In this document: one piece after another, positions 14,990-32,824 of the stretch
Layout of the letters: each line of letters starts with the position of its first letter
Numbering within the stretch: position 1 is the first letter of the stretch
NCBI GenBank assembly: GCA_019359745.1
Contig: JAHHGT010000007.1
Span: 1-64,000, forward strand
Direction: 5' to 3'
From: Aphanothece saxicola GSE-SYN-MK-01-06B
GTDB lineage: Bacteria > Cyanobacteriota > Cyanobacteriia > PCC-6307 > Cyanobiaceae
Length of the DNA: 64,000 bases
Made by a program: the position numbers and the translations under genes
Notes under the pieces: model-generated
The model's database searches: none
Seen by the model: only the letters and a program-made list of their open reading frames with translations
Told to the model about the DNA's origin: nothing

Positions 14990-16303
14990 GTGGCGTGCGA
15001 GCCGGGACGTCAAGTCTCGGAGCTGTGGCGGGCCCTGGCACCGGAGCGCTGGCCTGTGGCCCTCGACCAGTTTCCGCAGGGCACAGCCCTGGTGGGGGGG
15101 GCGGTGCGGGACGGGCTGCTGGGTCGGCTCGCCGCCCAGCCGGATCTGGACCTGGTGGTGCCCGGCGACGCCATCGACCTGGCCCGGCGGCTGGGGCGGC
15201 GCTTTGGCGGCACCTGTGTGGTGCTCGACCAGGAGCGTTCGATCGCCCGGCTGGTGCTGAAGGGCTGGACGATCGACCTGGCCCGCGGCGCCGGTGACAC
15301 TCTCACGGCCGATCTGGGCCGCCGCGACTACACCGTCAACGCCATCGCCCTGCCCCTGTGCAGCAACGAGGCCGCCGATCAGCCGCTGATCGACCCCTGC
15401 GGCGGCCTCGCGGATCTGGCGGCACGCCGAATGGTGGCGATCAGCGAGGCCAACCTGCTGGACGACCCCCTGCGGTTGCTGCGGGGGGTGCGGCTGGCCT
15501 GCGACCTGGACTTCGCCATCGCGCCGGCCACGTGGGAGCTGATCCGGCGCCACCGCCAGCGGATCACCGCCGTGGCCGGGGAGAGGGTGCTGGCGGAACT
15601 GGAGCGCCTGGCCGCGGCTGGCGAGGGGCATCGGGGGCTGGCTCAGGCGCTGGAAGCGGGCCTGCTCCAGCCCTGGGGGGCCGCTGACGGGAGCGAGGCG
15701 TCGCTGCAGCCCCTCGGTCCCGAGCGACCGGAACGCTGCGGCCTCACCCCCGCCGAAGCAGCCTGGGCCCTGCCCCTGGCGCGGCTGGCGGCCGTGCTGG
15801 ATGGCCGGTCCCTCGAGGGTCTGCGGGCCAGCCGCCGCCTGCAGCAGCGCTGCCAACGGCTGCGCCATTGGCTCGCTTGTCTCCGGCGGACGCCAGGGGA
15901 CACCGGTGCGCTGACGCTGGAGGCCCTGGCCGAAGCGGAGCGGCTGGCCCTGCAGCGCCAGCTGGAGGAGGACCTGCCTGCCCTGCTGCTGCACCTGGAT
16001 CCGCCGGCGGCGCAGCTGGCCGTGGGCCGCTGGCGGAATCCGGCGGATCGCCTGTTTCACCCCCGGCCACCCCTGGACGGCAGCCGCCTGCAACAACTGC
16101 TGGCCATCGCTCCGGGCCCCCGGCTCGGCCAGCTGATCGACCACCTCACCGCCGAATGGGCCTTCGGTCGCCTGGGCGGAACAGCAGCAACGGAGACAGC
16201 GGAGTTGACGGATGACCCCCTCCTCTCCGAGGCCGTGGTTGCCGCCCGGGCGTGGCTGGTTCGCCAGAGCGAGGCGAAGGACGCGGACCCACGGCGTGAT
16301 TAA
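14990..16303 (+). CDS. cca: CCA tRNA nucleotidyltransferase / poly(A) polymerase family
   Basis: A 437-residue class II nucleotidyltransferase. The head domain has GTALVGGAVRDGLLG and the metal-binding DLDLVV, then RRDYTVNAIAL and DPLRLLRGVRLACDLDFAI; the C-terminal part is all-helical and poorly conserved. It should repair or add the CCA end, needed since the tRNA at 1275 lacks an encoded CCA. The GTG at 14990 is preferred because it clears ycf34; an ATG at 14954 would overlap ycf34's start. Some bacteria split CC- and A-adding activities, so exact specificity is open. Confidence 0.85.
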   Translation: MACEPGRQVSELWRALAPERWPVALDQFPQGTALVGGAVRDGLLGRLAAQPDLDLVVPGDAIDLARRLGRRFGGTCVVLDQERSIARLVLKGWTIDLARGAGDTLTADLGRRDYTVNAIALPLCSNEAADQPLIDPCGGLADLAARRMVAISEANLLDDPLRLLRGVRLACDLDFAIAPATWELIRRHRQRITAVAGERVLAELERLAAAGEGHRGLAQALEAGLLQPWGAADGSEASLQPLGPERPERCGLTPAEAAWALPLARLAAVLDGRSLEGLRASRRLQQRCQRLRHWLACLRRTPGDTGALTLEALAEAERLALQRQLEEDLPALLLHLDPPAAQLAVGRWRNPADRLFHPRPPLDGSRLQQLLAIAPGPRLGQLIDHLTAEWAFGRLGGTAATETAELTDDPLLSEAVVAARAWLVRQSEAKDADPRRD

Positions 16304-16372
16304 CTGCTGGATGCAATGGCGCGATCGCACCGCCTGCCAGAGTTTTTTCCCTTTTCCCCGAGCCCCCTCCCC

Positions 16373-16801
16373 ATGAGCGTTCGTCTCTATGTCGGCAACC
16401 TGCCGCAAACCTTTGATTCCAAAGAGCTGGAAGCTCTCTTCTCGAGCGTGGGAGAGGGGGTGCGCTTCAAGGCGGTGAACGACCGGGAGACCGGCGGCTG
16501 CCGTGGCTTCGGCTTCGCCAACGTTGAGGATCTGGCCCAAGCCGAGGCTGTGATCGCCCAGCTCAACGGCAAGGACTTCGGCGGCAGCACCCTGCGCATC
16601 GAGATTTCCGAACAGCGCCGCGACAGCCGCCCAGCCTCCGGTGCCGATCGTCGCCCCGGCAGCGCCCCGACGCCCGCCCGCAAGAGCGTCAACAAGGTGG
16701 TCCATGCCGACGCCGTCGGCGAAGGCGCCCCCGATCCTCGCTGGGCCGGCGAACTGGCCAAGCTCAAGAACCTGCTGGCCAACCAGAAAGCAGCCGTCTG
16801 A
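16373..16801 (+). CDS. RRM-domain RNA-binding protein (Rbp)
   Basis: A 142-residue protein with one N-terminal RNA recognition motif: RNP2 RLYVGNLP (residues 3-10) and RNP1 GCRGFGFANV. The C-terminal ~55 residues are not glycine-rich as in the cold-induced RbpA class but contain RRDSRPASGADRRPGS and a conserved-looking end WAGELAKLKNLLANQ. Cyanobacterial Rbp proteins bind transcripts and some position photosystem mRNAs near thylakoids. The start ATG 16373 gives MSVRLYVGNL. A long perfect hairpin lies 10 bases after its stop. Confidence 0.9.
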   Translation: MSVRLYVGNLPQTFDSKELEALFSSVGEGVRFKAVNDRETGGCRGFGFANVEDLAQAEAVIAQLNGKDFGGSTLRIEISEQRRDSRPASGADRRPGSAPTPARKSVNKVVHADAVGEGAPDPRWAGELAKLKNLLANQKAAV

Positions 16802-17052: not shown

Positions 17053-17664
17053 TCAGCCCCGGTGAAAGTACCAGTAGGAACCGATCGCCAGCAGCACCAT
17101 CAGCACGATGGGGATGGCGATCGCCGCCATGCCGCTGTGGCTGCGCACCACCCGCCCTTCATGGGCAACGACCGCATCGCGGATGCTGGCCTGCATCTCC
17201 TCCCGCAGGCGGGCCAGATCGGACTCGAGGGTTTCGTTGGTGTAAAGGTCACGGAGGCGATCAAAAACGCTGCGTCCCAGCACGAGACTGCGTTCGGGAT
17301 GCTCGAACAGCAGATCCATCAGCTCGTCACGGCTGAACACCAGCAGCTCCGTGGGCTTTGCAGCCCGGGCCGTGTGGGTGCGGGTGCGCCCGTCGATGAG
17401 CTCCACTTCACCGAAGACATGGCCGGGCCCATGGCGCCCATCCACGCCTTCACCGGTTTCGGGATAGAGGGTGACGAGTTCGATCGTCCCGGTTCGGACA
17501 AGGTAAACATCCTGGCCGCTGTCTCCACTTCGGTAGGCGAACTCACCGGGTTCCAGGTGAAGCTTGCGCAATGGTCGCCGATCAACAGGAGCGCACTCTA
17601 ATTCCTCCCACCGGTTTAACTTGGTTCCCGGGCTGACTGGTGCTAAACAGGGGCGGTGGGCCAT
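17053..17664 (-). CDS. Cyclic-nucleotide-binding-domain protein with C-terminal membrane anchor
   Basis: A 203-residue protein from the ATG at 17664. Residues about 20-150 form a CNMP/CAP-like beta-roll (LHLEPGEFAYRSGDSGQDVYLVRTGTIEL, then HVFGEVELIDGRTRTHTA); a helical linker follows and a C-terminal helix (AAIAIPIVLMVLLAIGSYWYF) anchors it. The phosphate-binding cassette typical of true cAMP binders (GELAL...R-A) appears as FGEVELI-RTRTHTARA, so ligand binding is plausible but not proven. No DNA-binding or channel domain exists. It is divergent from Rieske oxygenase 1 with only 28 bases between the starts. Confidence 0.75.
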   Translation of the reverse strand: MAHRPCLAPVSPGTKLNRWEELECAPVDRRPLRKLHLEPGEFAYRSGDSGQDVYLVRTGTIELVTLYPETGEGVDGRHGPGHVFGEVELIDGRTRTHTARAAKPTELLVFSRDELMDLLFEHPERSLVLGRSVFDRLRDLYTNETLESDLARLREEMQASIRDAVVAHEGRVVRSHSGMAAIAIPIVLMVLLAIGSYWYFHRG

Positions 17665-17692
17665 TGGAACCCGTGTCGCACCCGTCTGAGGA

Positions 17693-18691
17693 ATGACCCA
17701 GGGACTCGAGAATTTCTGGTACGCGGTGGAGCACAGCCACGGGCTTGGCAACCAGCCCGTTTCCGTCACACTCCTGGGACGCCGCTACCTGCTCTTCCGT
17801 GATCAAGCCGGCCAGGCCCACGCCCTGGCCGACTACTGCGCCCACCGGGGCGCCAGCCTGGCCAAGGGATGGCTGGAGGGATCCTGCGTGCGCTGCCCCT
17901 ATCACGGCTGGAGCTATGACGTGGCCGGACACTGCGTCAGGATTCCGGCCGATCCGCCTGGCACACCCATCCCGGCCAAGGCCCGGATGGCCACCTTTCC
18001 CCTGAAGGAACAGTCCGGTTTCGTCTGGATCTTTCCTGGCGAGGCCGGACTGGCCGCCAGCGTCCCCATCCCCCCCTTCCCCGAACTGGACCAGCCGGGC
18101 TGGCGGGCGGTGAGCGGGGAGTACCGCTGGAAGGCCCACTTCAGCCGTGTCGTGGAGTCGGGGCTGGACACCTCCCACGCCCCCTTCGTGCACAAGCCGT
18201 TCTTCAGCAACCGCGAGGAGGCCAGCGTCGAAAGCCTGGACATCGTCAGCGAAGCGGGCCTGGTCTCCACGCATCACCAATTGAAGCCACCGGCACGGGT
18301 GGGGCTGCTGAAGTACATCGTCAAAAGGAAAAGAAGCCACTCCAGTTCCACCCTCACCGGCTATCTTCCCAACGTCAACAGGATCGCACTGGATTTCAAC
18401 TGGAAGGGATTTCAATACATCTATTTCGCCAGCAACATCCCCGTTGACGACACCACCACGCTCACCAAGTGGATCGGCGTGCGCAACTTTCTTCCCTACG
18501 GCTGGGCGGATGGCAACTCGATCCGTAACACCGTCGACACCTACGAAGAGGATCGCTCGGTGGTGGAGACCCAGCCGCCTGGTCCCTCCTGGGCCACCCA
18601 GGGGGACGAACTTCTGCTGGCCTCGGATCAGCTGATCCTGGCCTATCGCCGCGCCCTGGCCCGGGCCTGTCCGGCCGTCACGGCGCCCTGA
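17693..18691 (+). CDS. Rieske non-heme iron oxygenase 1
   Basis: A 332-residue oxygenase. The Rieske [2Fe-2S] ligands are C49 and H51 (CAHRGASL) and C68 and H71 (CPYHGW). The mononuclear iron triad is D159, H162, H167 in LDTSHAPFVH. The latter pattern and total size recall the pheophorbide a oxygenase/TIC55/chlorophyllide a oxygenase group (PaO-type), but the C-terminal CxxC and membrane helices of plant PAO are missing. The substrate is unknown. It needs an external reductase, none of which is adjacent. Rieske gene 2 follows after one base, so they are surely cotranscribed. Confidence 0.85.
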   Translation: MTQGLENFWYAVEHSHGLGNQPVSVTLLGRRYLLFRDQAGQAHALADYCAHRGASLAKGWLEGSCVRCPYHGWSYDVAGHCVRIPADPPGTPIPAKARMATFPLKEQSGFVWIFPGEAGLAASVPIPPFPELDQPGWRAVSGEYRWKAHFSRVVESGLDTSHAPFVHKPFFSNREEASVESLDIVSEAGLVSTHHQLKPPARVGLLKYIVKRKRSHSSSTLTGYLPNVNRIALDFNWKGFQYIYFASNIPVDDTTTLTKWIGVRNFLPYGWADGNSIRNTVDTYEEDRSVVETQPPGPSWATQGDELLLASDQLILAYRRALARACPAVTAP

Positions 18692-18692
18692 A

Positions 18693-19709
18693 ATGAGCTC
18701 CCCGACGCCCTGGCCCACCGACTGCTGGTACGCGGTGGGCCTCTCCAGCCAGGTGAACCACCAGCCCCTGGCCCATCGCTTCCAGGGCCGGGAGGTGGTG
18801 ATGATGCGCGACGGCGGCGGCCGGGTGCTGGCCTTCGACGGCCGCTGCGCCCACCGGGGCTGCTCCCTGGCGGGGGGCTGGGCCCAGGGGGACACCCTCG
18901 TCTGCCCGTACCACGGCTGGCGTTACGACGCGCAGGGCGCCTGCGTGGCGATCCCGGCCCTGCGGGCCGAGGAGTCCATCCCCCGCCAGGCCCACCTGCG
19001 CACCTTCCCCACCCGGGAGCGGCATGGGTTCGTCTGGTTGTGGCTGGCCGGCCAGCACCCGGACCCCGAGGAAGACGTGCAGGACATCCCGGAACTGGCT
19101 GGTCTCAGCCTGCGGGACGGTGGTGACATGGCCTTCACCTACGCCACCCATTTCACCCGGACAATCGAGAACGGCATCGATCCCACCCATGCCGCCTTCG
19201 TCCATGGGAAAAGCATCGGCCGGGTCGACCCCGACACCGACTTCAGCCTGGAGCACTACCCCGTCCAGGTGGAGCGCGGCAGCCTGTACGGGCGCATGCC
19301 GATCAAGGTCAAGAAGCTCACCGGCCTCACCCGCCTGCTGCTGAAGGGGGACTCCGGCAACGCCTACAAGGAGTACCGCTTTCTCTACCCCAATGTGGTG
19401 GTGTCGATCATTCATTTCGGTGCCCTGACCCTGGCGGCCCTGCAGGCCCACGTGCCCGACAACGACAGGGAAACCACCGTCAGGGTGACCAACGGCAGGA
19501 ACTTCCTGGGCACCACTCCCCTGCTCAACCGGCTCTTCGATCGCATCACCCTGGACACGGGTCTGCAGATCTCCAGGGAGGATGCGGCCGTGATCACGGA
19601 ACAGGAACCGAAGCGGGTCAGCTTCCGCGGCTCCCACGAAGTGCTGATCGAGTCCGACCTGATCCTGGTGGAGTACCGCCGCATGATGCGCGAACGGGCC
19701 CGGGCCTGA
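18693..19709 (+). CDS. Rieske non-heme iron oxygenase 2
   Basis: A 338-residue paralogue of its neighbours. Cluster ligands are C52, H54, C71 and H74 (RCAHRGCSL, VCPYHGW); the iron triad is D163, H166, H171 (GIDPTHAAFVHG). All catalytic residues are intact. The middle part (MPIKVKKLTGLTRLLLKGD) parallels LKYIVKRKR in copy 1 and the region around LKLLRTLMG in copy 3 (21071), suggesting a shared substrate-entry lid. It lies one base after copy 1 and converges with the MFS gene, leaving a 33-base gap. Function beyond oxygenase is not assignable from sequence. Confidence 0.85.
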   Translation: MSSPTPWPTDCWYAVGLSSQVNHQPLAHRFQGREVVMMRDGGGRVLAFDGRCAHRGCSLAGGWAQGDTLVCPYHGWRYDAQGACVAIPALRAEESIPRQAHLRTFPTRERHGFVWLWLAGQHPDPEEDVQDIPELAGLSLRDGGDMAFTYATHFTRTIENGIDPTHAAFVHGKSIGRVDPDTDFSLEHYPVQVERGSLYGRMPIKVKKLTGLTRLLLKGDSGNAYKEYRFLYPNVVVSIIHFGALTLAALQAHVPDNDRETTVRVTNGRNFLGTTPLLNRLFDRITLDTGLQISREDAAVITEQEPKRVSFRGSHEVLIESDLILVEYRRMMRERARA

Positions 19710-19742
19710 GACAGCGATCGCCCTAGGGGCCCCCCGTCCCGC

Positions 19743-20951
19743 TCAGCCGACGACGTCGACCGGCACAGGGACGGGCTCCTTGATGCCGCGCAGCAGGGGG
19801 GCCCCCAGCAGACAAACCGCCGCCTGGAGCAGGAAGCAGAGGGCCGGGGACAGGTCGTAGAGCACCCCGGCCAGCATCGGGCCCAGGGCACTGGCCAGGC
19901 CCGTGAGGGCGATCAGGCTGCCCAGCATCACCCCCTGCCGGTTCTCGGGCACCAGCCGCGACACCAGACTCCGGGCCGTTGGGATCACGCAGGCTGCCCC
20001 CACCGAGAGCATCACGGCGGACGTGACGATCACGACGGCGGCGCCGGCCCCGAAAACCTGGGCCAGGGGGACCAGGGCAATGCCGACGGCCACCGCCACC
20101 AGGCCGTAGCCGTTGAGCCGGGCCTCGCCATGGCGCCGGACCAACGGGCCGGTGAGGGCCACCTGCACGTAGGTGACCGTGAGGCCGACGATCACGAAGA
20201 TGCCGCTCGATTGCGTGGCCGACCAGGAGAACTGATCTTTCAGGTAGAGCACCAGCAGGGTGGTGAAGCCGCTGAAGGCGAAGTTGAAACAGCAGAACGA
20301 GAGGGCCACCCGGTTCGCCTTCGGCAGGGCCAACAGGGCCATGACCGGCGCCAGTCCGTTGATCTGGGCGCGCTGGAAGCGCGGTCTGTTCTCGCGGGGG
20401 AGCGTTTCCTTGAGATACAGAAACGCCATCACGAAGTTGTAGACCGCCAGGGCGGCCGCCACGAACACCGGGATGCGCATGCCGAAACCCACCAGGGCAC
20501 CCCCCAGGGCTGGACCGGCGATGGCCCCGAGGCCGAAGGCGGCACCGCTGATGCCGAAGTTGCGGGCCCGGTTCGCCGGTGTGGAGATGTCGGAGATGTA
20601 AGCCTGGGCCGTGCCGACGGTGGCGGTGGAGACACCATTGATCGCCCTGGAGAGAAAGATCAGTCCCAGGGTTCCGGCCACGCCGAACATGAACAGAGAC
20701 AGGGCGTTGATGGCGACGCAGAGAAGAATCACCGGCCTGCGGCCGTAGGCATCACTGAGGGAGCCGATGATCGGCGAGGCCAGCACAGAAAACAGGGTGG
20801 CCGTCGACGCCAGCAGCCCCAGGGTGAGTCCGTCCGGGGAGAACGTCTCGAGAATGAAGGGCAGGAGCGGGTAGACGATGTTTTCGCCCAGCTTGTCCAG
20901 CAACAGGGTGAGAAACACGATCGCCAGGGGACTGCGCAGCTTGCGAATCAC
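19743..20951 (-). CDS. MFS transporter (DHA1/TetA-like)
   Basis: A 402-residue, about 12-helix major facilitator. Motif A GSLSDAYGRRPVIL lies between helices 2 and 3, with RARNFGISGAAFGLGAIAGP (motif C-like) in helix 5, both typical of proton-driven drug or metabolite exporters. The GTG at 20951 (VIRKLRSPLAIVFLTLLLDK) is chosen, since the open frame upstream to 21104 is soluble, unconserved-looking sequence. It faces Rieske 2 tail to tail and is divergent from Rieske 3. It may export the product of the flanking oxygenases, but it could equally be an unrelated efflux pump. Confidence 0.82.
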   Translation of the reverse strand: MIRKLRSPLAIVFLTLLLDKLGENIVYPLLPFILETFSPDGLTLGLLASTATLFSVLASPIIGSLSDAYGRRPVILLCVAINALSLFMFGVAGTLGLIFLSRAINGVSTATVGTAQAYISDISTPANRARNFGISGAAFGLGAIAGPALGGALVGFGMRIPVFVAAALAVYNFVMAFLYLKETLPRENRPRFQRAQINGLAPVMALLALPKANRVALSFCCFNFAFSGFTTLLVLYLKDQFSWSATQSSGIFVIVGLTVTYVQVALTGPLVRRHGEARLNGYGLVAVAVGIALVPLAQVFGAGAAVVIVTSAVMLSVGAACVIPTARSLVSRLVPENRQGVMLGSLIALTGLASALGPMLAGVLYDLSPALCFLLQAAVCLLGAPLLRGIKEPVPVPVDVVG

Positions 20952-21070
20952 TTGCGGATCATTCGAATGGCAGTGTGGGCTGTCCCAACCTTGGCGGCGG
21001 CGCCAATCTAGGGGGTGTCGCACTCTCCAACCGGACGCTTCGCTTAAGATCCCCGCAGCATCAGCAGAGC
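20952..21070. promoter_or_regulatory. Divergent promoter region, MFS / Rieske 3 operon
   Basis: This 119-base spacer must contain promoters for the MFS gene and for the Rieske3-devBCA-hydrolase operon. I see no clear operator palindrome or NtcA-type GTAN8TAC site. The Rieske 3 ATG is preceded by a weak purine run (AGCAGAGC). Confidence 0.45.
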
Positions 21071-22153
21071 ATGTCAATTCCTGGGTCCGTATCAGAGACA
21101 ACATCTCCCCAGGTGTCTCAACTGGCTCAGAATTGTTGGTATGCCGTGGCCTCTTCCTTCGCCCTGCAGAAGGGTCCCGTCGCCGTTCCGTTTGCGGGTC
21201 ACGATCTGGTGCTGTTCCCGGATGCGGAAGGACGGCCGCACCTGTTCAGCGACCGTTGCCCCCACCGGGGGGCCTCCCTGGCCCTGGGCCGCGTGGAAGC
21301 CGGTTGCCTGCGCTGCCCGTTCCATGGCTGGAAGTTCGCCGCCGATGGCACCTGCCTGGAGGCCCCTGCCGAACCGGCCGGGGCCAGCCCGCCGGCCCGC
21401 AGCGGCCTGGTGGGGGAGCGGCCGGTGCTCGAGTCGCGGGGCTTCGTCTGGATGTGGTGGGGCCCCGATCCTGCCGATCCGGCCCTGCTGCCCGAGCTGC
21501 CCCTCTTCCCGGCCGCCGACTGGAGCCATGTGGAAAGCAGCTTCGACTGGGACACCCATTTCAGCCGGGTGATCGAGTCCAACCTCGACAATTCCCACGC
21601 TTACTGGGTTCACAAGGGCACCTTCGCCAGTCAGGATTCGCCCCTGTCGATTCCGGTCGATCTGCGCAAGGAGGATCGCATGATCGCCGCCACCGTGAGC
21701 TTCGAATTGCCGGTGAAAGGAGCCCTCAAGCTGCTGCGCACCCTGATGGGCCAGAGCGGGCCCCTCTGCGCCACCACCACCTTCAGCTTCTACTACCCGA
21801 ATCTGAACATCGTCGACACCAGCATCGGCGACCAGCTGCGCTTCGTCTTCTTCAATGCCAGCCTCCCCCAGAGCGACAGCCACACCCTGGCCCGCTGGGT
21901 GAAGTACTCCAGGCGCAAGCGCTTGCGGCTGCCCGGCAGCGCGGCCAAGTCGATCGCCATCTCCCGCACGATCTTCCAGGAGGACCACGGGGTGGTGCGC
22001 AGCCAGCGGCCGAGCCCGGTCCCCCTCGACCTCACCGAGGAACGGCATGTGGCCTCGGACATCCTCTCGATCGAGTTCCGCCGCATGCACCGCCGCTGGC
22101 TGAGCGCAGAACCGCTGGCTACCATGGCGCGCCCTGACGCCCTCGGTTCGTGA
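21071..22153 (+). CDS. Rieske non-heme iron oxygenase 3
   Basis: A 360-residue third paralogue. Rieske ligands are C63, H65, C82, H85 (RCPHRGASL, RCPFHGW); the iron triad is D173, H176, H181 (NLDNSHAYWVHKG). The ATG at 21071 gives MSIPGSVSETTS; an open frame upstream to 20975 lacks conservation. The segment after the catalytic triad (YYPNLNIVDTSIGDQ) matches the equivalent LPNVNRIALDF and YPNVVVSIIHFG of copies 1 and 2. The stop overlaps the GTG start of the DevB gene (GTGA), so the oxygenase is translationally coupled to an exporter. The substrate is unknown. Confidence 0.87.
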   Translation: MSIPGSVSETTSPQVSQLAQNCWYAVASSFALQKGPVAVPFAGHDLVLFPDAEGRPHLFSDRCPHRGASLALGRVEAGCLRCPFHGWKFAADGTCLEAPAEPAGASPPARSGLVGERPVLESRGFVWMWWGPDPADPALLPELPLFPAADWSHVESSFDWDTHFSRVIESNLDNSHAYWVHKGTFASQDSPLSIPVDLRKEDRMIAATVSFELPVKGALKLLRTLMGQSGPLCATTTFSFYYPNLNIVDTSIGDQLRFVFFNASLPQSDSHTLARWVKYSRRKRLRLPGSAAKSIAISRTIFQEDHGVVRSQRPSPVPLDLTEERHVASDILSIEFRRMHRRWLSAEPLATMARPDALGS

Positions 22154-23247
22154 CGGAGACGCCGCACGTCGACAGGCTGGAGGGCCTGCAGCGTTTCTGG
22201 CGGGAGCGCGCCTGGGGCAGCGGCCGTCAGAAGATCGTCACGGTGTCGGCGCTGGCCGTGCTGGGGCTGGCGGGATGGCAGCTGAGCCACCGTCCTGCCC
22301 CACCGCCACCGCCCCTGGCGCCCCGGGCCGTGACCGCCCTCGGACGTCTCACCCCCATGGGAGGGGTCGTGTCCCTCTCCACCGCCGCCGGCAACAGCGG
22401 CGGCTCGGAGGTCGTCGAAAAGTGGCTGGTGCCGGAAGGCGCGACGATCCGCCGCGGCCAGCTGCTGGGCTTCCTGAGCAGCTGGGCCAGCCTCCGCAAC
22501 AGCGTTGTCCAGGCCGAAAACCAGCTGGCCCTCAGTGAAGCCAAGCTGGCCCAGGTGGACGCGGGAGCCCGCCAGGGCGCCCGGCTCAAAGCCGAGGCCG
22601 ACCTCAAGGCCGAGCAGGTGGTGATTCCCTACCTGAAGATCAGCCAGCAGAAGAGCGTGGAGCTGTTCAAGGCGGGGGCGATCTCCGAGGAGGAACTCGG
22701 CAAGGCCGATGCCGCCCTCGCCCAGGGCCAGGCCAACATCCAGGCGCTCAAGGGCACCCTCTACGACAACCTCACGGTCCGCCCGGTGGACCGGCAGGTG
22801 GCCCTCGCCGATGTGGCGGTGGCGAAGGCCAGCCTCGCCCAGGCCCGCAGCCAGCTGCGCAACGCCGAAATCCGCTCCCCCCTCGACGGACGCCTGCTGC
22901 GGATCTACAGCTGGCCGGGCATGAAAGAGACCGACCAGGGGCTCGCCCAGGCCGGACAGATCGGGGCCATGCAGGTCTGGGCCCAGGTGTTCCAGAGCGA
23001 CATCCCCCAGGTGCGCTCAGGCCAGCCCGTCGAGATCTGGCCGGAGAGCGGGGGCTTCAGCGGCAAGCTGCAGGGCCGCGTCCAGAACATCACCGGCGAG
23101 GTCTCCGACCGGGACCTGTTCAGCGTCAACTCCAACAACAACGTCAATGCCCGGGTGGTGCTGGTGAAGATCAACCTGACCCCCGCCGACTCCAGCCGCC
23201 TCGCCAAACTCAGCGGACTGAACGTCAACGTCCGCTTCCTGCCGTGA
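22150..23247 (+). CDS. devB: ABC exporter membrane-fusion subunit, DevB-like
   Basis: A 365-residue periplasmic adaptor: membrane anchor at about 28-45 (KIVTVSALAVLGLAGWQL), a lipoyl/barrel-sandwich half (AVTALGRLTPMGGVVSLS), a long coiled-coil hairpin (about 115-240, rich in A/Q/K/E) and the second lipoyl half AEIRSPLDGRLLRIYSWPGM, then a beta-barrel. The LTPMG...WPGE/M layout is typical of the DevB family, the adaptor of the DevBCA exporter that in Anabaena works with the TolC homologue HgdD to export heterocyst glycolipids. The GTG start overlaps Rieske 3; the stop overlaps devC by 4 bases. Confidence 0.88.
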   Translation: MTETPHVDRLEGLQRFWRERAWGSGRQKIVTVSALAVLGLAGWQLSHRPAPPPPPLAPRAVTALGRLTPMGGVVSLSTAAGNSGGSEVVEKWLVPEGATIRRGQLLGFLSSWASLRNSVVQAENQLALSEAKLAQVDAGARQGARLKAEADLKAEQVVIPYLKISQQKSVELFKAGAISEEELGKADAALAQGQANIQALKGTLYDNLTVRPVDRQVALADVAVAKASLAQARSQLRNAEIRSPLDGRLLRIYSWPGMKETDQGLAQAGQIGAMQVWAQVFQSDIPQVRSGQPVEIWPESGGFSGKLQGRVQNITGEVSDRDLFSVNSNNNVNARVVLVKINLTPADSSRLAKLSGLNVNVRFLP

Positions 23248-24431
23248 TCGGCCGCTCCCTGAGGCGCAGCCTGGGCGATCTGCCGGTGGCCTGGCTGCAG
23301 CTGAAGCGGCAGCCGATCCGCTACCTGGTGGCCGTCACCGGCATCGGTTTCGCCGCGCTGCTGATGTTCATGCAGCTGGGCTTCCAGTCGGGCCTGCTGA
23401 CCAGCGCCACCACCTTCTACCAGGCCCTGATCACCGATCTGGTGGTGATCAGCCCCGGCACCCGGGACAGCGGCGCCTTCCAGCAGTTCCCCCAGTCCCA
23501 GCTGTATCAGTCGCTGGGGGTTCCGGGGGTGAGCGATGTCATTCCGGTCTATGTGGCCAATGTGAATGCCCAGCAGATGGGCGGGATCAAACCCACCAGC
23601 CTGCGCCTGATCGGCTTCGATCCCAACCAGCAGATCCTCGATCTGGCCCCGGTGCGCGAGCAGATCGACCGGATCCGCACCCCGGGCTACGTGCTCTTCG
23701 ATGCGGCGGGGAACAGCAACACCGGTCCGGTGGCGGCGGCGGTCAAGGACCAGGGGAGCCAGACGATGATCCTCTCCGACTATTCCAAGACCTTTCGGGT
23801 GGTGGGATTGTTTCGCCTTGGCTCCACCTTCGCCGCCGACAGCAATCTGATCAGCAGCGACACCACCGCCCTGCAGCTGGCCTACAAACAGATCAACGAA
23901 GGCGAGATCTCCATGGGCCTGATCCGCGTCACCGATCCGGCTGCCATCACCTCCGTGCAGCGTCACCTGCGGGCCCTCTACGGCAGCCAGCTGCAGGTGT
24001 TCACCAAGCCGGAGCTGATCGCCAATGAACAGAACTACTGGAACACCAGTTCCTCCTTCGGCATCATCTTCGGCTTCGGCACGATCATGGGACTGCTCGT
24101 GGGGGGGGTGATCGTCTATCAGGTGCTGTACACCGATGTCAGCGACCACCTGCACGAATACGCCACCCTCAAGGCCCTGGGCTTCCGCAACCGGTTCCTG
24201 CTGATCCTGGTGCTCCAGGAGGCCTCGATCCTGGCGGTCTCCTCCTTCGTTCCTGCCCTTGTGGCGAGTGCCGCCCTCTATGCCTTCCTCACCGCCGTCT
24301 CCGGCATCCAGATCGTGATGACCACCGACAAGACCCTGCTGGTGTTCAGCCTCACCATCGGCGTCTGCGCCGTGGCGGCCGCCATCGCGCTCAACAAGCT
24401 GCGGGATGCGGATCCGGCCAGCGTCTTCTGA
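23244..24431 (+). CDS. devC: ABC exporter permease, DevC-like
   Basis: A 395-residue permease of the MacB/FtsX type: helix 1 at about 30-48 (VAVTGIGFAALLMFMQLGFQ), a long periplasmic domain (about 50-260), then three helices near residues 270-390 (FGIIFGFGTIMGLLVGGVIVYQ; LLILVLQEASILAVSSFVPAL; TLLVFSLTIGVCAVAAAIAL). The motif YATLKALGFRN before helix 3 is the usual ATPase-contacting region of DevC. It partners DevB and DevA. Start is GTG, with a GTGA overlap. Confidence 0.88.
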   Translation: MIGRSLRRSLGDLPVAWLQLKRQPIRYLVAVTGIGFAALLMFMQLGFQSGLLTSATTFYQALITDLVVISPGTRDSGAFQQFPQSQLYQSLGVPGVSDVIPVYVANVNAQQMGGIKPTSLRLIGFDPNQQILDLAPVREQIDRIRTPGYVLFDAAGNSNTGPVAAAVKDQGSQTMILSDYSKTFRVVGLFRLGSTFAADSNLISSDTTALQLAYKQINEGEISMGLIRVTDPAAITSVQRHLRALYGSQLQVFTKPELIANEQNYWNTSSSFGIIFGFGTIMGLLVGGVIVYQVLYTDVSDHLHEYATLKALGFRNRFLLILVLQEASILAVSSFVPALVASAALYAFLTAVSGIQIVMTTDKTLLVFSLTIGVCAVAAAIALNKLRDADPASVF

Positions 24432-24436
24432 TCCCG

Positions 24437-25120
24437 ATGCAGCCCGTCGTCGCCGAGAATCTGCGCCACGCCTACGGCGAGGGTCCGCTGCGCAGCGAGA
24501 TTCTGCACGGGATCAGCTTCAGCGTGAATCCGGGCGAGATCACCTTGCTGGTGGGGCCCTCCGGCAGCGGCAAGAGCACCCTGCTCACCCTCGTCGGGGC
24601 GCTGCGATCGGTCCAGGAGGGATCCCTGCAGGTGCTCGGCAGCGAGGTGCGGCGCTCCAGTGAGCGCAGCCGGGTGGAGATCCGCCGCCGCATCGGCTTC
24701 ATCTTCCAGAGCCACAATCTGGTGGCCTCCCTCACCAGCCTGCAGAACGTGGCCCTGGTGCTGCAGCTGAGTGAACCGGATCCCAGGCGGCGCCTGCACC
24801 GGGCCACCGCCCTGCTCGAGGCGGTGGGCCTGGGCCACCGCCTGGATTACTTCCCGTCCGAACTCTCCGGCGGCCAGCGCCAGCGGGTCGCGATCGCCCG
24901 GGCCCTGGCCCCCGAACCCGACCTGGTGCTGGCCGATGAACCCACCGCCTCCCTCGACAGCAGCTCCGGCCAGGAGGTGGTGGCCCTGCTGGGCGACCTC
25001 TGCCGCAAACGGGGCAGTTCGGTGCTGCTGGTGACCCACGACCTGCGCCTGCTCGATGACGCCGATCGGATCTGGGCCATCGAAGATGGCAGGGTCGAGC
25101 CCTGGAAGGGTTCCCATTGA
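24437..25120 (+). CDS. devA: ABC exporter ATP-binding subunit, DevA-like
   Basis: A 227-residue ABC ATPase of the LolD/MacB class: Walker [20 protein letters not shown]-loop FIFQSHNLVASLT, signature LSGGQRQRVAIARAL, Walker B LVLADEPTASLDS and H-loop VTHDLRLL. The 5-base gap to devC and the 4-base overlap with the hydrolase gene put it in a five-gene operon. It energises export through DevC/DevB and an outer-membrane TolC, for which a candidate is encoded at 28693-30315. Confidence 0.9.
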   Translation: MQPVVAENLRHAYGEGPLRSEILHGISFSVNPGEITLLVGPSGSGKSTLLTLVGALRSVQEGSLQVLGSEVRRSSERSRVEIRRRIGFIFQSHNLVASLTSLQNVALVLQLSEPDPRRRLHRATALLEAVGLGHRLDYFPSELSGGQRQRVAIARALAPEPDLVLADEPTASLDSSSGQEVVALLGDLCRKRGSSVLLVTHDLRLLDDADRIWAIEDGRVEPWKGSH

Positions 25121-26118
25121 GCCCCCCGTCACCCGGCCCCATGTCCGTCACTCCCCCTGCCAGCGGCGACTTGGCCGACGCCGTCCCGATGTTCCCGGCC
25201 GACTGGCTGGACACCTGGCCATGGCAGGGACAGACGATCAGCTACGTGGGCAGCTCCCCAACGGCACCCGGCCCGGCTGGGGTGTTGCCCGTGCTGCTGA
25301 TCCATGGCTTCGGCGCCTGCAAGGAACACTGGCGCCACAACCTGCCGCCCCTGTCGGGTCACCGGCCCGTGTTCGCCTTGGATCTGGTGGGCTTCGGAGC
25401 CAGCAGCAAGCCGCCCTCCCGCCTTGAGGGCGAACCCGACGACGGCCTGGCCTTGCGCTACGGCATCGACCTGTGGGCTGATCAGGTGGCGGCCTTCGTG
25501 CGGGAGGTGATCGGCACGCCGGTCCAGCTCGTCGGCAATTCGATCGGGGGTGTCGTGGCCCTCGCCGCGGCCGCCAGACTCGGGGACGACGCCCGCCAGG
25601 TGATCCTGATCGACTGCGCCCAGCGCAGCCTCGATGACCGCCGCCTGAGCGAGCAGCCCCCCCTGCGCCGCATTGGCCGGCCCCTGCTGAAGCGACTGGT
25701 GCGGCAGCGCTGGCTCACCGGCCGCCTGTTCCGCTGGGTGGCCAACCCCGCTGTGATCCGCAAGGTTCTGGGCGCCGCCTATCCCACCGGCGACGGGATC
25801 GACGACCAACTGGTGCAGTTGCTGCTGACCCCGGCCCGCAGCCCCGGCGCCGAAGAGAGCTTCCGGGGGTTCATCAACCTCTTCCGCGACCGGCTCGCCC
25901 CGGACATGCTGGCGGAACTGACCGTTCCGGTCCGGCTGCTCTGGGGGGAGGCGGATCCATGGGAGCCGGTGGCCGAGGCCCGGCGCTGGGCCGGGGCCTA
26001 CGGCGCCGTGCGTGATCTGCGGATCCTGAGCGGCCTCGGCCACTGCCCCCATGACGAAAATCCCTCGCGGGTGAATCCGGTGCTGGAGGAGTGGCTGGCG
26101 CTCGAGGATCAGCCCTAG
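25117..26118 (+). CDS. Alpha/beta hydrolase
   Basis: A 333-residue (from TTG 25117) or 325-residue (from ATG 25141) hydrolase. It has the oxyanion HGFGACKEHW, nucleophile elbow GNSIGG, acid LLWGEADPW and catalytic His in GLGHCPHDE, so the triad Ser-Asp-His is intact. A cap domain lies between about 180 and 260. The GNSIGG elbow and HG(F)GA-x-K-x-H-W motif remind me of the cyanobacterial/plastid group that includes pheophytinase-like enzymes, but haloalkane or ester hydrolases share these. The TTG overlaps the devA stop, placing it as the last gene of the Rieske3-devBCA operon. Confidence 0.8.
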   Translation: MSPPSPGPMSVTPPASGDLADAVPMFPADWLDTWPWQGQTISYVGSSPTAPGPAGVLPVLLIHGFGACKEHWRHNLPPLSGHRPVFALDLVGFGASSKPPSRLEGEPDDGLALRYGIDLWADQVAAFVREVIGTPVQLVGNSIGGVVALAAAARLGDDARQVILIDCAQRSLDDRRLSEQPPLRRIGRPLLKRLVRQRWLTGRLFRWVANPAVIRKVLGAAYPTGDGIDDQLVQLLLTPARSPGAEESFRGFINLFRDRLAPDMLAELTVPVRLLWGEADPWEPVAEARRWAGAYGAVRDLRILSGLGHCPHDENPSRVNPVLEEWLALEDQP

Positions 26119-26435
26119 GGGGGAGCCGGCGGCCTTGCAGCACCGAGTCGGGTGCGCCAGCGCTGACGCTCGGGATCCCAGCGCAACCAGCCCCGTTCCT
26201 GCAGCCGGGCGCGCAGCTGCTCCGGGGTCTGGCCCAGGGGAGGCGCCGCGGCGGCACAGCAGGCGTCGAGTTCCGGCTCCCCCAGGCCGGCCCGCAGGCC
26301 CAGGGTGAGCAGCTGCCGCAACGCTGCGGGCTCCAGCGCCACCAGCCGGGCCATGCTCAGGGGGCCCTCCGGCAAGGCGAGGAGGGGCCGCGCTGCGCTG
26401 TCACCGGCGGTCTCGGGAGGCTCAGAGGAGCGCAT
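26115..26435 (-). CDS. Hypothetical protein, 106 aa
   Basis: A short protein with two helical parts: LVALEPAALRQLLTLGLRAGLGEPELDACC and a compact C-terminal region LGQTPEQLRARLQERGWLRWDPERQRWRTR, which looks like a small winged-helix or SH3-type fold with aromatic residues. I do not recognise it. The start at 26435 overlaps the end of the MinD-like gene by 14 bases, so it is probably its partner in an operon. The 3' end just overlaps the convergent hydrolase stop. Confidence 0.6.
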   Translation of the reverse strand: MRSSEPPETAGDSAARPLLALPEGPLSMARLVALEPAALRQLLTLGLRAGLGEPELDACCAAAAPPLGQTPEQLRARLQERGWLRWDPERQRWRTRLGAARPPAPP

Positions 26436-27186
26436 CGGCGAGGTCGGCCGCGAGCTGGGTCACCCCGGCACTCCAGGGGTGGGAAGGGACATCCACCAGC
26501 GCCAGGCTGCGACTGGCGATCGTGAGCAGGTCGTCGCTGAGGGGCAGGATCGCTCCCACCGGAATGCCGTAACTCTGGGCCACCCGGGCGCGCACCTGTT
26601 CGGCATCGAAGTGGGGGGGCAACTTGTTCACCACCAGGCGGGCCTCGGGCACCATCAGCCTCTGGGCCACTTCGATCGCCACGGCGGTGCCGAGGTAATC
26701 CTGCTGATCCGGGCGCATCACCATCACCAGGCAATCGGAAATGGCCGTCGACAACAGGGTCTCCTCGTTGATCCCTGGGTGCGTGTCCACGATCAGCAGA
26801 TCCAGGTGCTGACTCTGGCCAAGGCTGAACAGGGCATCATTGAGCCGCTCCACCTCATAGCCCTCGCGCAACAGCCGGGCGATTCTGTCCCCATCCATGG
26901 CGGCCGGCACCAGATAAATGCGCCCCTTACCACCTCCCAGAGCAGAAGGTGTCACATCATGGGAACACTTTTCGATCGGTATGGAGCCTTGGAGATGGTC
27001 ATTGAGCGTATGGGATTCCGGACCAGCCGTGAATCCGAACAGCACATGAATGCCCGGCGAAGCCAGATCGGTGTCAAACACGCCCACCCTCAATCCCCGG
27101 GCCGCGAATGCGGCCGCCAGATTCGCCGAGAGGTTGGATTTTCCCGTTCCTCCACGGAAGGAATGGACGGAAAGGATCCTGGTCAT
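26422..27186 (-). CDS. MinD/ParA-like ATPase
   Basis: A 254-residue deviant-Walker ATPase: FRGGTGKSNLSANLA (residues 10-24), switch I DTDLASPGIHVLFG, Walker B LDLLIVDTHPG. The signature lysine of the KGGxGKT motif is Arg11 here, which could affect dimer-dependent hydrolysis. The C-terminus lacks an obvious amphipathic membrane-targeting helix like that of MinD. Such ATPases position or assemble large complexes at membranes. The ATG at 27186 is preferred to a TTG at 27198. It is divergent from the HAMP-domain gene with only 38 bases between them, suggesting a functional pair. Confidence 0.82.
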   Translation of the reverse strand: MTRILSVHSFRGGTGKSNLSANLAAAFAARGLRVGVFDTDLASPGIHVLFGFTAGPESHTLNDHLQGSIPIEKCSHDVTPSALGGGKGRIYLVPAAMDGDRIARLLREGYEVERLNDALFSLGQSQHLDLLIVDTHPGINEETLLSTAISDCLVMVMRPDQQDYLGTAVAIEVAQRLMVPEARLVVNKLPPHFDAEQVRARVAQSYGIPVGAILPLSDDLLTIASRSLALVDVPSHPWSAGVTQLAADLADALL

Positions 27187-27224
27187 GAAGCGATCCAATT
27201 CACAGATGTGGGAAAATCATAGGC

Positions 27225-28802
27225 ATGGCGTTGCAGGCCCTTTTGAAGATTCGCCAACGACTCCCCGGACGCCCCTGGAGGGTTCTGGAAGCGAGACTCG
27301 GGCCGCCGAAACCGATGCGACTGTCGCTGAGGCTGCTGCTCCTGGGGATCAGTGGTCCCCTGGTGAGTCTGGCGATCTTTCTGGTGCTGGCGACGATCGG
27401 CTCGATCCGTCTGGCCCAGAAGGCCCAGATCGAGATCAACAGCATGTTCGACCACGACAACCTGTCCTCCCTGTCGGTAACCACCTCGATCATCCAGAAA
27501 TCAGCCTCGGCGATCAGCCAGGACATCTTTCAGGATTCCCAGGAATTGCGCGCGGCCCTGGCCCCCTTGCGGCTGGAGGCCAACGGCCGCCTGACCTGGA
27601 AAGGCCAGAGCCTGACAACGGCCGAGGCCCCCGCCGTGCTGAACGAGCAGCTGCGCCTCCCCCTGGCGATGCCCCAGGAGCGGGCGGCGGTGTACTACCG
27701 CGACCGCACCGGCACCTGGCGGCGTCTGGCGGGCATCACCAGTCGGGGCAAGGCCCTCAAGCCCGGCGCGCCGGCCAGGCCTGCAACGGTCAGCGACTTC
27801 GAGCACCTCTTCAAGGGCGCCCCCACCGCGGAGGTCGCTCGCAACACCATGGTGCAGATGGATGGGGAGTGGCGCATGGCCCGACTGACGCTGTTGTCGG
27901 GCCGGAAGCCTGGGGAGGGCCATCTGGCCCTGTTGGTGGACGTCAGCACCCAGGCGGCCTCCCAGCTGCTGGCCGCCGGCTCGAGCCTCTTCCCGACCGA
28001 CACCCATCAGGCGGCCTTTTTTGGCATCAGCCCCACCGGCGCGCTGTACTGCAGCTACCAGACGCCGGGCACCGAGGCGTGCGTCGACCTGGCCATGGCC
28101 ATGCGTCAGAACGGCGGTGTCCCCGACCCGCGGGCCCTGGGCCTGAGCAGGACCTTCGAGCGCAAGGCCCTGGTGAGTCCCCTGGGCACCGATCAACCGG
28201 TGCAGCAACACCTGTACATCGCCACCTTTCCCGAGTGGAACTGGCTGGCGGTGGTGTCCGTGGAGGAAGAAGCTCTGGCGGATGCCCTCGTGCCGATGCA
28301 GGAGGCCAGGGACCGGATGGTCCGTCGCCTGGTGGTCCTCACCCTGATCCTGATCGGCGCCAGCGGCGTGGCCGCCTGGCTGATCTCCCGTGGCATCCAG
28401 CGGCAGCTGCGGGAGCTGGCAACCGCCGCCGATGCGATCGCCGATGGCCAGGACCATCAGGCGCTCACCTACCCCGCCGATGACGCCATCGGCCGACTGG
28501 TGCGGGCCTTCAACCGGATGTCGGGGGCCGTGGCCGACCGGGAAAGTTCCCTGCGGGCCCAGATCCGCCAGATGGAGATCGACATCAACGCCAGTGAACT
28601 GCAGGGCCAGGTCTGCTCGATCCTCAACGATCCCGGCTTCGAACAGCTCAGTGCCCGTGCACAGGCGATGCGCCAGCGGCGTCTGGAGCAGATCAGCGCA
28701 TCTGGGCCATCCGCGTCGGCAGCCGCAGGGTCTGCAGGGGATGGCCCACCGCCTCGAGAAGGGCGGGATCAGGCTGAACAGGCAGGCCGCTCGAGCGGCT
28801 GA
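27225..28802 (+). CDS. Membrane sensor with periplasmic Cache-like domain and HAMP, no output domain
   Basis: A 525-residue protein. Helix 1 (about 34-58: LLLLGISGPLVSLAIFLVLATIGSI), a ~300-residue extracytoplasmic part resembling a double Cache domain, helix 2 (about 366-388: RLVVLTLILIGASGVAAWLI), then HAMP (RGIQRQLRELATAADAIADG to RAFNRMS). After HAMP a short helix (REQMEIDINAS-like, IRQMEIDINASELQGQVCSI) and FEQLSARAQAMRQRRLEQ follow, but no kinase, cyclase or methyl-accepting domain. The last ~36 residues are low-complexity and overlap the convergent TolC gene by 110 bases. Likely role: signal relay to a partner, possibly the divergent MinD-like ATPase. Confidence 0.75.
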   Translation: MALQALLKIRQRLPGRPWRVLEARLGPPKPMRLSLRLLLLGISGPLVSLAIFLVLATIGSIRLAQKAQIEINSMFDHDNLSSLSVTTSIIQKSASAISQDIFQDSQELRAALAPLRLEANGRLTWKGQSLTTAEAPAVLNEQLRLPLAMPQERAAVYYRDRTGTWRRLAGITSRGKALKPGAPARPATVSDFEHLFKGAPTAEVARNTMVQMDGEWRMARLTLLSGRKPGEGHLALLVDVSTQAASQLLAAGSSLFPTDTHQAAFFGISPTGALYCSYQTPGTEACVDLAMAMRQNGGVPDPRALGLSRTFERKALVSPLGTDQPVQQHLYIATFPEWNWLAVVSVEEEALADALVPMQEARDRMVRRLVVLTLILIGASGVAAWLISRGIQRQLRELATAADAIADGQDHQALTYPADDAIGRLVRAFNRMSGAVADRESSLRAQIRQMEIDINASELQGQVCSILNDPGFEQLSARAQAMRQRRLEQISASGPSASAAAGSAGDGPPPREGRDQAEQAGRSSG

Positions 28803-30311
28803 GCTGCACCAGGCTGTCGTTGTAGGTGGCCAGGTTCTCGATGTAGGAGCTCACCGCCTGGCTGATCTCCTGCTGGGCCTGGACCACATCGGTGATCGTG
28901 CCGTAGCCGGCGTTGAAGCGCAGGGTCTGGAGGCGCAGGGCCCCGTTGGCCGCCGTGACCCGCTCGGCTCCGGCCATGACGATGCTGCGGCCGGAGCGGG
29001 CCTGGGCCACCAGGGACTGCACTTCGCTACGCACCTGCAGCACGGTGGCGCTGTAGGTCTCGGCGGCGGCCGCCGCCTGGCGGCGGGCGGCGGCGGCGTT
29101 CATGCGGGCCTGGCCGCCGTCAAAGCCGGTGAAGGTGAGCTGCAGCAGGGCCGATCCGTTCCATTCGTCGGAGCGGGCGTTGGGCACGAACGGCGGGCCC
29201 TGGTTGAGGTAGCCCACCCCCTTGGTCCAGTAGAGGGAGGTGATCAGCTGCAGGGTGGGTCGGTAGGTGGCCAGGTAGATCCGGGCCTGGGCCTCGTTGG
29301 TCTGGACGGCGAGGAGCTGTTGTTCCAGCACCTTGCGGTAGGCGAGGCTCGCTGTGATCGAGTCGTTGAGGGAATGGTCCCAGGCGCCGAGGGGGGCGAA
29401 AGGCGTGGCGGGCGTGAGGGCGTCGGGACTGGGGGTGGCCAGCAGCTGGGCCAGGTTGGCCCGGGCGGTTTCCACCTGCTGTTCGGCGGCCAGGAGCGAC
29501 TGGCGGTCGGCCAGCAGGACGGTCTGCTGCTTGTAGACCTCCAGCTTGGAGGCCACCCCCATCTGCACCCGGGTCTGGGCGAGGCGATACAGCAGTTCGT
29601 CGTTCTCGACGATCTGCCGGCCGGTCTGCACGGCGGCGAGGGCCCGCTGGAGATCGATGTAGGCCGACTGGGTCTTGAGGCGCTGGTCGCGGCGGGTGAT
29701 CACATAGGTGTCCGCCGCCTGGCGGACCAGGTACTTGTTCTGCCAGATCGTGGCCGACCGGGTGGGATCGATCAGGTTCCAGGTGGTATCGATCTGGCCG
29801 ATCGCCTGGAAGTAGCTCGCTTCAAACACCCTCTCACTGCTGAGACCGGAGCCCGAGATGGGGAAGCCCGCGGAGGCACTGAAGGGGTAGTTGTAGAAGG
29901 TCTTGGAGGCGTAGGGACCGCCGTTGAGGCTGAGGTTGAGGGTGGGCCACCAGCTGGCATAGGCCGCACCGAGGCTGTTCTGGGTGGCCACCAGGGACTG
30001 GTAGGCGGAGCGCACCACGGGATTCCTGTCCACCGCCCAGGCCGCCGCCTGCTCCATCGTCAGGGCCCCCAGGAGCTCGGGGGGCAGGGCGGGCAGGCGG
30101 TCGCCGGTGGGCATCGGGCCGGGCCATCCCGCCCCCAGTCCCTCCACGGCCTTCACCTCGGGTGGGCTGACCGAGGCCGGCAGGGACTGGGCCCGGGCCA
30201 GTGATGGAAAAGGCAGCCCTCCAATGCAGGCCGCCAGGGCGCAATGGGTGAGGCGGACAGGCAGGGACGGCAGCGTCGAAGGCCCGTGGGCCTGGCCGAT
30301 GGAACGCCGCT

Positions 30312-30315
<4 letters not shown>
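28693..30315 (-). CDS. TolC-family outer membrane efflux protein
   Basis: A 540-residue outer-membrane factor with a signal peptide (about 1-42: CALAACIGGLPFPSLARAQS) and two repeats of the long alpha-helical/beta-barrel unit. Features include WAVDRNPVVRSAYQSL, the helical ETARANLAQLLA segment and in repeat 2 FNAGYGTITDVVQAQQEISQA, the classic TolC signature for the second helical pair. It forms a trimeric outer-membrane duct for tripartite exporters such as DevBCA. The ATG overlaps the crtB stop (ATGA), so it is the third gene of a crtP-crtB-tolC operon. In Anabaena the DevBCA partner is the TolC homologue HgdD. Confidence 0.88.

Positions 30316-32824
<2,509 letters not shown>

Follow-up and report, generated by a model that had tools for sequence, protein, structure and literature searches.

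A co-inherited set of Rieske oxygenase, hydrolase and exporter genes in Aphanothece saxicola and other cyanobacteria, with a possible tetrapyrrole substrate

The window analysed here, the first 64,000 nucleotides of contig JAHHGT010000007.1 of Aphanothece saxicola GSE-SYN-MK-01-06B, carries a set of 13 genes (17053-30315) bracketed by two core genes, encoding an RRM protein (16316-16801, +; PF00076) on the left and the phytoene synthase CrtB (30312-31241, -; NF045686 the best model at 436.8 bits, though under its cut-off of 550) on the right. The set comprises, in order, a cyclic nucleoside monophosphate (cNMP)-binding protein with a C-terminal membrane anchor (17053-17769, -; PF00027, 65.5 bits), the Rieske oxygenases R1 (17693-18691, +) and R2 (18693-19709, +), a major facilitator superfamily (MFS) exporter of the TetA-like group (19743-21104, -; MFS_1, 182.5 bits), a third Rieske oxygenase, R3 (21071-22153, +; longest open reading frame from 20975), the adaptor DevB (22150-23247, +; HlyD/DevB), the MacB-type permease DevC (23244-24431, +; FtsX/DevC), the ATPase DevA (24437-25120, +; ABC_tran/DevA), an alpha/beta hydrolase (25117-26118, +; Abhydrolase_6), a small open reading frame of about 100 amino acids found conserved by tblastn (26115-26435, -), a MinD/ParA-like ATPase (26422-27198, -; PF10609/PF01656), a HAMP-domain membrane receptor (27225-28802, +; 31.8 bits) whose extracytoplasmic domain is probably dCache-like, and a TolC-family outer-membrane duct (28693-30315, -; OEP, 137.8 bits). 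The R3, devB, devC, devA and hydrolase genes (21071-26118, +) are read as one operon because they are chained by 4-bp overlaps or one 5-bp gap; the hydrolase has a TTG start and overlaps devA by 4 bp. The tolC gene likewise overlaps crtB by 4 bp, within the minus-strand series crtP-crtB-tolC.

A preliminary description of the interval 17693-30315 had listed three Rieske oxygenases, an MFS pump, DevB-DevC-DevA, an alpha/beta hydrolase and TolC. Each of these is an intact open reading frame in its expected place, and profile searches confirmed the expected families. The inventory itself was incomplete, since it omitted the cNMP-binding protein, which lies at the left edge of that interval, together with the MinD-like ATPase, the small open reading frame and the HAMP receptor; the MFS and TolC genes sit on the minus strand.

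R1, R2 and R3 each combine a Rieske domain (PF00355) with a VanA_C domain (PF19112). The residues which, from family knowledge, we take to be the Rieske and mononuclear-iron ligands (C49, H51, C68, H71; D159, H162, H167, D312 in R1 numbering) are invariant in all eight sequences aligned, including the three of the window, in agreement with the earlier statement that the metal ligands are intact. The same description had called the enzymes PaO-type. This does not hold: none of the three matches the PaO domain PF08417 at E 0.001, a domain that a different Rieske protein of the same genome (locus L170) matches at 82 bits. Judged by their domains, R1-R3 are VanA_C-type Rieske oxygenases. The R1 model (mean predicted local distance difference test score, pLDDT, 83.9) gave DdmC (Z 33.7), SxtT (32.2) and NdmA (31.8) as best structural matches. 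R1 shares with SxtT/GxtA, DdmC and NdmA the fold, the ligands and the Rieske plus VanA_C architecture (Z 31-34) but is only 20-28% identical to them, and clusters of its type hold one to three Rieske genes each.

DevB and DevC score above the cut-offs of their family models (TIGR02971, 178.9 bits against 129; TIGR01185, 332.2 bits against 290.35), whereas DevA stays just short of the cut-off of TIGR02982, by far its best family (289.8 bits against 295.8). With the Tet(A)/Tet(B)/Tet(C) family model the MFS protein reaches 188.2 bits, where the cut-off is 475, and the part of it that is conserved in relatives ends near 20966. The export genes resemble the heterocyst glycolipid exporter HgdD-DevBCA of Anabaena PCC 7120 in the DevB and DevC matches and in the presence of a TolC partner. 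The set of the window differs in having its own TolC, and oxygenases in the same operon, whereas the DevBCA paralogues of Anabaena share one HgdD (PMC8277102, in part). These paralogues include drug-efflux and iron-metabolism systems, according to portions of the same paper. The preliminary description had argued from the unicellular look of the genome that the DevBCA substrate must differ from heterocyst glycolipids; a DevBCA exporter in a unicellular strain is nothing unusual, as a DevC relative is present in 39 of the 40 genomes surveyed, the window's own included. Pumps of the MacB type take their cargo from the periplasm and do not cross the inner membrane, the cargo being supplied by stand-alone inner-membrane pumps (sections of PMC5985334). 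The MFS exporter therefore has a clear job beside DevBCA, which accounts for the co-occurrence of the two.

The hydrolase residues S142, D280 and H309 are invariant in 8/8 sequences. A Ser-Asp-His triad is a very general feature, common to the DphA/CLD1 dephytylases, and a PDB search returned only general alpha/beta hydrolases among the best 60 of 124 matches. Dephytylases known in cyanobacteria are Slr1916, a putative esterase, and DphA1-3 (PMC10068330, in part). The hydrolase family occurs in all 40 genomes surveyed and is thus core cyanobacterial; it is kept where the rest of the set is absent. In a quick tree (50 of 79 copies plus that of the window), cluster and non-cluster copies are interleaved. 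The hydrolase of the window is a core gene that was drawn into the operon.

The true start of the cNMP-binding protein is probably near 17600, homologues being 170-188 amino acids long. One hydrophobic C-terminal segment was found in 5/5 cluster copies examined, and in these five the anchor sequence is nearly identical between the family of the window and the filamentous families. The gene adjoins the set in loci L048-L055, L073-L078 and L168. The small open reading frame has no Pfam match. A tblastn search of 28 loci detected it in 17, on 15 distinct contigs, all of them Cyanobium/Synechococcus-type loci with MinD; no match was obtained in the two set-free loci included, nor in the MinD-bearing L074. 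Its product is possibly a MinD partner. In the receptor, two hydrophobic segments flank a domain of about 310 residues, and no output domain was found. Its model (pLDDT 68.3) matched mostly chemoreceptor and dCache ligand-binding domains in Foldseek, weakly (best E 1.5e-7, root-mean-square deviation mostly >5), and a filamentous relative (L105) matches dCache_1.

Within the genus, the two halves of the set are present or absent together. A search of 40 genomes found a close DevC (97-98%, one 89%) in nine other same-genus genomes, including G012 on broken contigs; the remaining same-genus genomes have only DevC paralogues of at most 42%. TolC copies of 85-94% occur in exactly the same genomes, with at most 33% in the others searched. 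Ten of 25 same-genus genomes, counting the window's own and the partial G012, therefore carry both close DevC and TolC, and the other 15 carry neither. R3 occurs in 10 of 42 genus genomes, namely nine of the ten carriers and G042; no close R3 was found in G012, which has other parts of the set. In each of the eight further complete genus loci read, the twelve genes running from RRM to crtB are arranged and oriented identically, and the small open reading frame was also found in each. The genome of the window is of the Cyanobium/Synechococcus type; by R1, its nearest named relatives among the sequences scanned are Synechococcus sp. CCY 0621 (96%), Cyanobium sp. N5-Cardenillas (95%) and Synechococcus sp. 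CS-1332 (92%); the next include Cyanobium sp. N.Huapi 1H5, Aphanothece cf. minutissima CCALA 015 and Synechococcus sp. BO 8801 (90%).

Set-free loci of the genus have the order CCA-RRM-hydrolase-crtB-crtP in 8/8 read, so that the core hydrolase has part of the set to its left and part to its right. Measured between matched regions, the hydrolase is separated from its two flanks by 137-161 bp and 42-73 bp where this was determined (two set-free loci), compared with 8315 and 4193 bp in the window. In trees of host genes built by a careful method (crtP+crtB and CCA+RRM), the set-free G024 stands beside the strain of the window and the set-free G002 among G006, G008, G017 and G022. The placement of G002 agrees with a tree of gyrB, a gene located elsewhere (26 genomes asked; G017, G022 and G024 missing). 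The simplest reading of these trees would be that the set was present in the clade ancestor and that at least two absences removed both halves while sparing the hydrolase. Since the G002 hydrolase falls at the clade base in its own tree, it is equally possible that a set-free allele was brought in by recombination in the flanks. Either way, the two halves around the hydrolase behave as one unit under loss or replacement. Because sister strains share these flanks whether or not they carry the set, they offer ready-made natural controls.

The set also recurs, reshuffled, outside the genus. In the same family, the same genes lie in other orders between both flanks in L073 (G118), L075 (G173), L076 (G106), L248 (G064) and L249 (G192). 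L076 has no R2 orthologue, and the Rieske and MFS genes of L248 and L249 are divergent. In L083 (G236) and L089 (G077) the set is beside the left flank and the contigs end on the other side. In L074 (G109) it is located elsewhere than the flank site. Among filamentous cyanobacteria, L077 carries cNMP, hydrolase, MFS, devABC, R2 and R1; L078 carries MinD, cNMP, racemase, binding protein, symporter, HAMP, MFS, R2, R1 and devABC; L082 carries devBCA, R1, R2 and MFS. L168 (Elainella sp. Prado103) has devBCA, a Rieske gene, HAMP, symporter, binding protein, racemase, cNMP, MinD, hydrolase and MFS. The set of G563 is split between R1, R2, hydrolase, MFS, racemase, binding protein, symporter and HAMP on the one hand and MinD, cNMP and devBCA on the other (L079/L251). 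An Asp/Glu racemase, an SBP_bac_3 binding protein, an SDF symporter and the dCache-HAMP receptor travel together beside the Rieske set in the filamentous loci L078 (2161-7115), L105 (14594-19343) and L168 (11225-16222).

Neighbourhoods were counted in 80 named loci (40% identity, half length), of which 23, at least 50% identical to R1, form the R1 clade. Around these lie MFS in 18, hydrolase in 18, cNMP in 13, DevC in 14, MinD in 9 and HAMP in 10, many of the loci being cut by contig ends. Around the other 57 Rieske loci the counts are MFS 3, hydrolase 1, cNMP 1, DevC 23, MinD 1 and HAMP 1; L168 was kept among these 57 though it is a complete cluster, its Rieske lying at the base of the R2 lineage. 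A Rieske tree built by a quick method from chosen representatives (80 of 238 collected copies plus the three window rows) places R1 and R2 in separate orthologous lineages (support 96-100, their join 81), each with members from Cyanobiaceae-type and filamentous families. Both lineages span families, so the pair stayed together. The R3 clade is confined to the family of the window among the tree rows used. The Rieske, DevC and hydrolase collections contain duplicates of the same contigs, and long branches were flagged for several tree rows.

The substrate is best approached through the relatives of the Rieske pair. The Rieske-pair clade neighbouring R1/R2 belongs to tolyporphin-type clusters, mostly with DevBCA. 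Within 10 kb of the Rieske genes of the 57 other loci lie HemF2 in 26, TolJ in 26, TolI in 25 and HemA in 11. The 26 tolyporphin-type loci are L121, L123, L128, L129, L132-L136, L138, L139, L141, L142, L144, L148, L149, L152, L154, L156-L158, L160, L162, L164, L165 and L169. Such groups, with HemF2, TolJ and nearly always TolI near a Rieske gene, occur in, among others, Nodularia, Anabaenopsis, Chrysosporum, Calothrix, Coleofasciculus, Gloeocapsa and Mastigocoleus, a range much wider than the eight strains given in the accessible part of PMC8401325. L168 aside, the DevC-bearing loci among the 57 number 22, all within the 26. In L149 the NCBIfam names are HemE, HemC, porphobilinogen synthase, two coproporphyrinogen oxidases and HemA. 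HemF was dropped as a marker of these loci: HemF1 used as a query also matches the HemF2 gene (36-42%), so that most HemF1 hits are HemF2 counted a second time, and a HemF1 distinct from it was seen in 4/26.

L121 is Nostocales cyanobacterium HT-58-2 itself, within the reported interval of its biosynthetic gene cluster BGC-2. BGC-2 and the cluster of Oculatella LEGE 06141 resemble the present set in a tandem VanA_C-type Rieske pair (Pfam matches for L121; also L129), and BGC-2 does so in having DevB/DevC in one cluster with that pair. In a later DevC analysis, the DevC of R1-type sets shares one side of a weak branch (support only 63) with 7 of the 22 tolyporphin-type rows, the DevC of L121 being on the same side. 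A first, quick DevC tree (57 of 87 copies plus that of the window) had suggested that the two cluster types recruited DevBCA separately. This was not upheld, a constrained tree being as good (approximately unbiased test, p-AU 0.594), nor is a single clade shown. The tolyporphin-type clusters differ in carrying hem and tol biosynthesis genes, and at the threshold used MFS was found in one of the 26 loci and hydrolase, cNMP, MinD and HAMP in none. The link to tetrapyrroles is indirect, running through the protein family only, but it is the best substrate clue found.

That the genes form one oxidise-and-export unit is well supported. The earlier proposal, one set to oxidise, de-esterify and export a metabolite, stands in this respect: the genes might have proved scattered and independent in related genomes, and they are instead co-inherited, co-absent and recurrent in reshuffled order. 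It loses the PaO assignment and the argument from DevBCA in a unicellular strain, and is weakened by a hydrolase that is core to 40/40 genomes. The reading that we tentatively favour, in what is close to an even balance, is that the 13 genes trim and eject a hydrophobic small molecule, most likely a tetrapyrrole such as a chlorophyll derivative. The hydrolase would free an acid or an alcohol from an ester, and the R1/R2 pair, with R3 in the family of the window, would hydroxylate or demethylate the freed product. The Rieske enzymes may draw electrons from the general ferredoxin pool, as neither a reductase nor a ferredoxin could be recognised among the genes of the set. The MFS exporter would then move the product across the inner membrane, and DevBCA would pick it up in the periplasm and push it through the TolC that belongs to the set. 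In favour of such a relay, L074 (G109) has an HlyD-type adaptor and an AcrB-type resistance-nodulation-division (RND) pump directly beside the hydrolase (1702-6131) and no DevC in the 20 kb read, which may be understood as the exchange of one pump that empties the periplasm for another. Sensing of a ligand, and control or positioning of the machinery, are the probable tasks of the dCache-HAMP receptor, the tail-anchored cNMP protein, the MinD-like ATPase and its small partner. The gene content, the joint presence and absence, the recurrence and the intact catalytic residues are established by the data, while we infer the order of reactions, the substrate and the regulation. A tetrapyrrole is the leading guess for the substrate; the wider class named earlier, pigment, lipid or isoprenoid, is likewise a guess.

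Several observations weigh against this favoured reading. R1-R3 lack a PaO match, and the closest solved Rieske enzymes act on saxitoxins, dicamba and methylxanthines, not on tetrapyrroles. The five tetrapyrrole and tolyporphin genes sought were found in 0/23 R1-clade loci, so that the substrate, if a tetrapyrrole, is probably pre-existing and not made by the set. Of the 22 tolyporphin-type DevC rows, the other 15 are placed in a different clade by the first DevC tree, and the Rieske tree does not settle how the tolyporphin clade connects to R1/R2. For HT-58-2, the consulted parts of PMC10459692 and PMC8401325 note a 'duplicate hcaE' and DevB/DevC in BGC-2, call the relevance of hcaE unknown, and give the tolyporphin cluster BGC-1 without Rieske genes. 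DevC is missing near R1 in 9 of the 23 loci, partly because of contig ends. G109, whose L074 has the RND pump, does hold one DevC relative (39%) at a distant place in its genome. The hydrolase also occurs without the set, as do MinD-like relatives, present in 159 of 388 genomes; for this reason MinD was rejected as a marker of the set. Finally, the racemase, glutamate-type binding protein and dicarboxylate symporter of the filamentous clusters are unexplained by the favoured model.

These last genes fit better with a unit that oxidises and exports a secondary metabolite other than a tetrapyrrole (a lipid, an isoprenoid or an amino-acid conjugate), an alternative that we regard as rather doubtful. 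Here the Rieske enzymes would tailor an alkaloid- or lipid-like compound, and in filamentous strains the racemase, binding protein and symporter would handle an amino-acid part. The small-molecule substrates of SxtT/GxtA, NdmA and DdmC point in this direction, as does the best known cargo of DevBCA, a glycolipid (PMC6161253, in part). Against it, the genes identified in the set of the window include no dedicated scaffold gene (polyketide synthase, non-ribosomal peptide synthetase or terpene cyclase), and a search of L248 and L249, loci of the same family, did not reveal the racemase, the binding protein or the symporter. Detoxification seems unlikely. The Rieske enzymes and the hydrolase would modify xenobiotics or light-damaged molecules, the two pumps would expel them and the receptor would sense them. 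The TetA-like MFS, the patchy presence of the set, the drug resistance conferred by some DevBCA paralogues (a portion of PMC8277102) and the resemblance to DdmC and NdmA, which judged by their names alone are demethylases of such compounds, are consistent with it; however, R1 and R2 are kept as a pair across families, more tightly than broad detoxification would predict, and the hydrolase is a core gene.

Two further explanations concern the locus rather than the chemistry. The 4-bp overlap of tolC with crtB could suggest tailoring and export of a carotenoid. This is highly improbable, as crtB and crtP adjoin the hydrolase in all eight set-free strains read, which makes them ancestral neighbours, and no crtB or crtP match was found in the filamentous loci L077, L078 and L105; a carotenoid link through crtB/crtP was rejected on the ground of the set-free strains. 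That independent genes share the locus by chance has slightly less still to commend it. The hydrolase and MinD families do occur apart from the set, and MFS and TolC lie on the other strand, but chance is already contradicted by joint presence and absence on both sides of a kept hydrolase, by reshuffled recurrence and by the contrast between the 23 and the 57 loci.

A more specific version of the tetrapyrrole reading is speculative, and we consider it improbable as a whole. The set would be a bacterial route of chlorophyll disposal in which a dephytylase-type hydrolase acts first, the Rieske pair modifies the tetrapyrrole, and MFS and then DevBCA-TolC expel the photo-toxic product under a receptor/MinD module of its own; filamentous cyanobacteria would have built the tolyporphin-type clusters from the same oxygenase-exporter kit. 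Plant chlorophyll breakdown proceeds through a dephytylase, the Rieske oxygenases PAO and TIC55, and export. The likeness is one of logic only (esterase, Rieske oxygenases, exporter), as R1-R3 are without the PaO domain and action on chlorophyll is here only hypothetical. Free chlorophyll intermediates are photo-toxic, and to our knowledge their disposal in cyanobacteria is poorly understood; the set offers a concrete, deletable candidate for it. Independently of what it exports, the set combines MacB-type export with an inner-membrane pump of its own and with a receptor/MinD/cNMP module. The plant esterases of chlorophyll breakdown are covered in PMC5853334, the consulted part of which gives PPH itself as likely absent from cyanobacteria. 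No description of the cluster was found in the open-access literature as judged by titles and the starts of abstracts, and open-access titles on CruH/synechoxanthin and phyllobilins gave nothing on the locus. From the portions consulted, the Rieske enzyme of PMC10119275 belongs to a guanidine cluster, and PMC6898599 concerns PAO-like genes of predators.

Some minor features of the window may be added. A promoter scan found no sigma-70-like sites and is not informative; terminator-like sites number 16, with 6.1 expected. A tRNA-Pro called by ARAGORN at 15173-15257 (+), inside the CCA-transferase reading frame, is unconfirmed by Rfam and probably false. A DUF3172 gene lies at 33169-33906 (+) and, not far from crtP/crtB, an NnrU-family gene at 34812-35753 (+); Z-ISO, a carotene isomerase, belongs to the NnrU group. 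The HAMP receptor gene (+) and tolC (-) overlap tail to tail by 110 bp (28693-28802), and this arrangement is repeated in the eight further genus loci, with an overlap of about 105 bp in seven and about 65 bp in L048.

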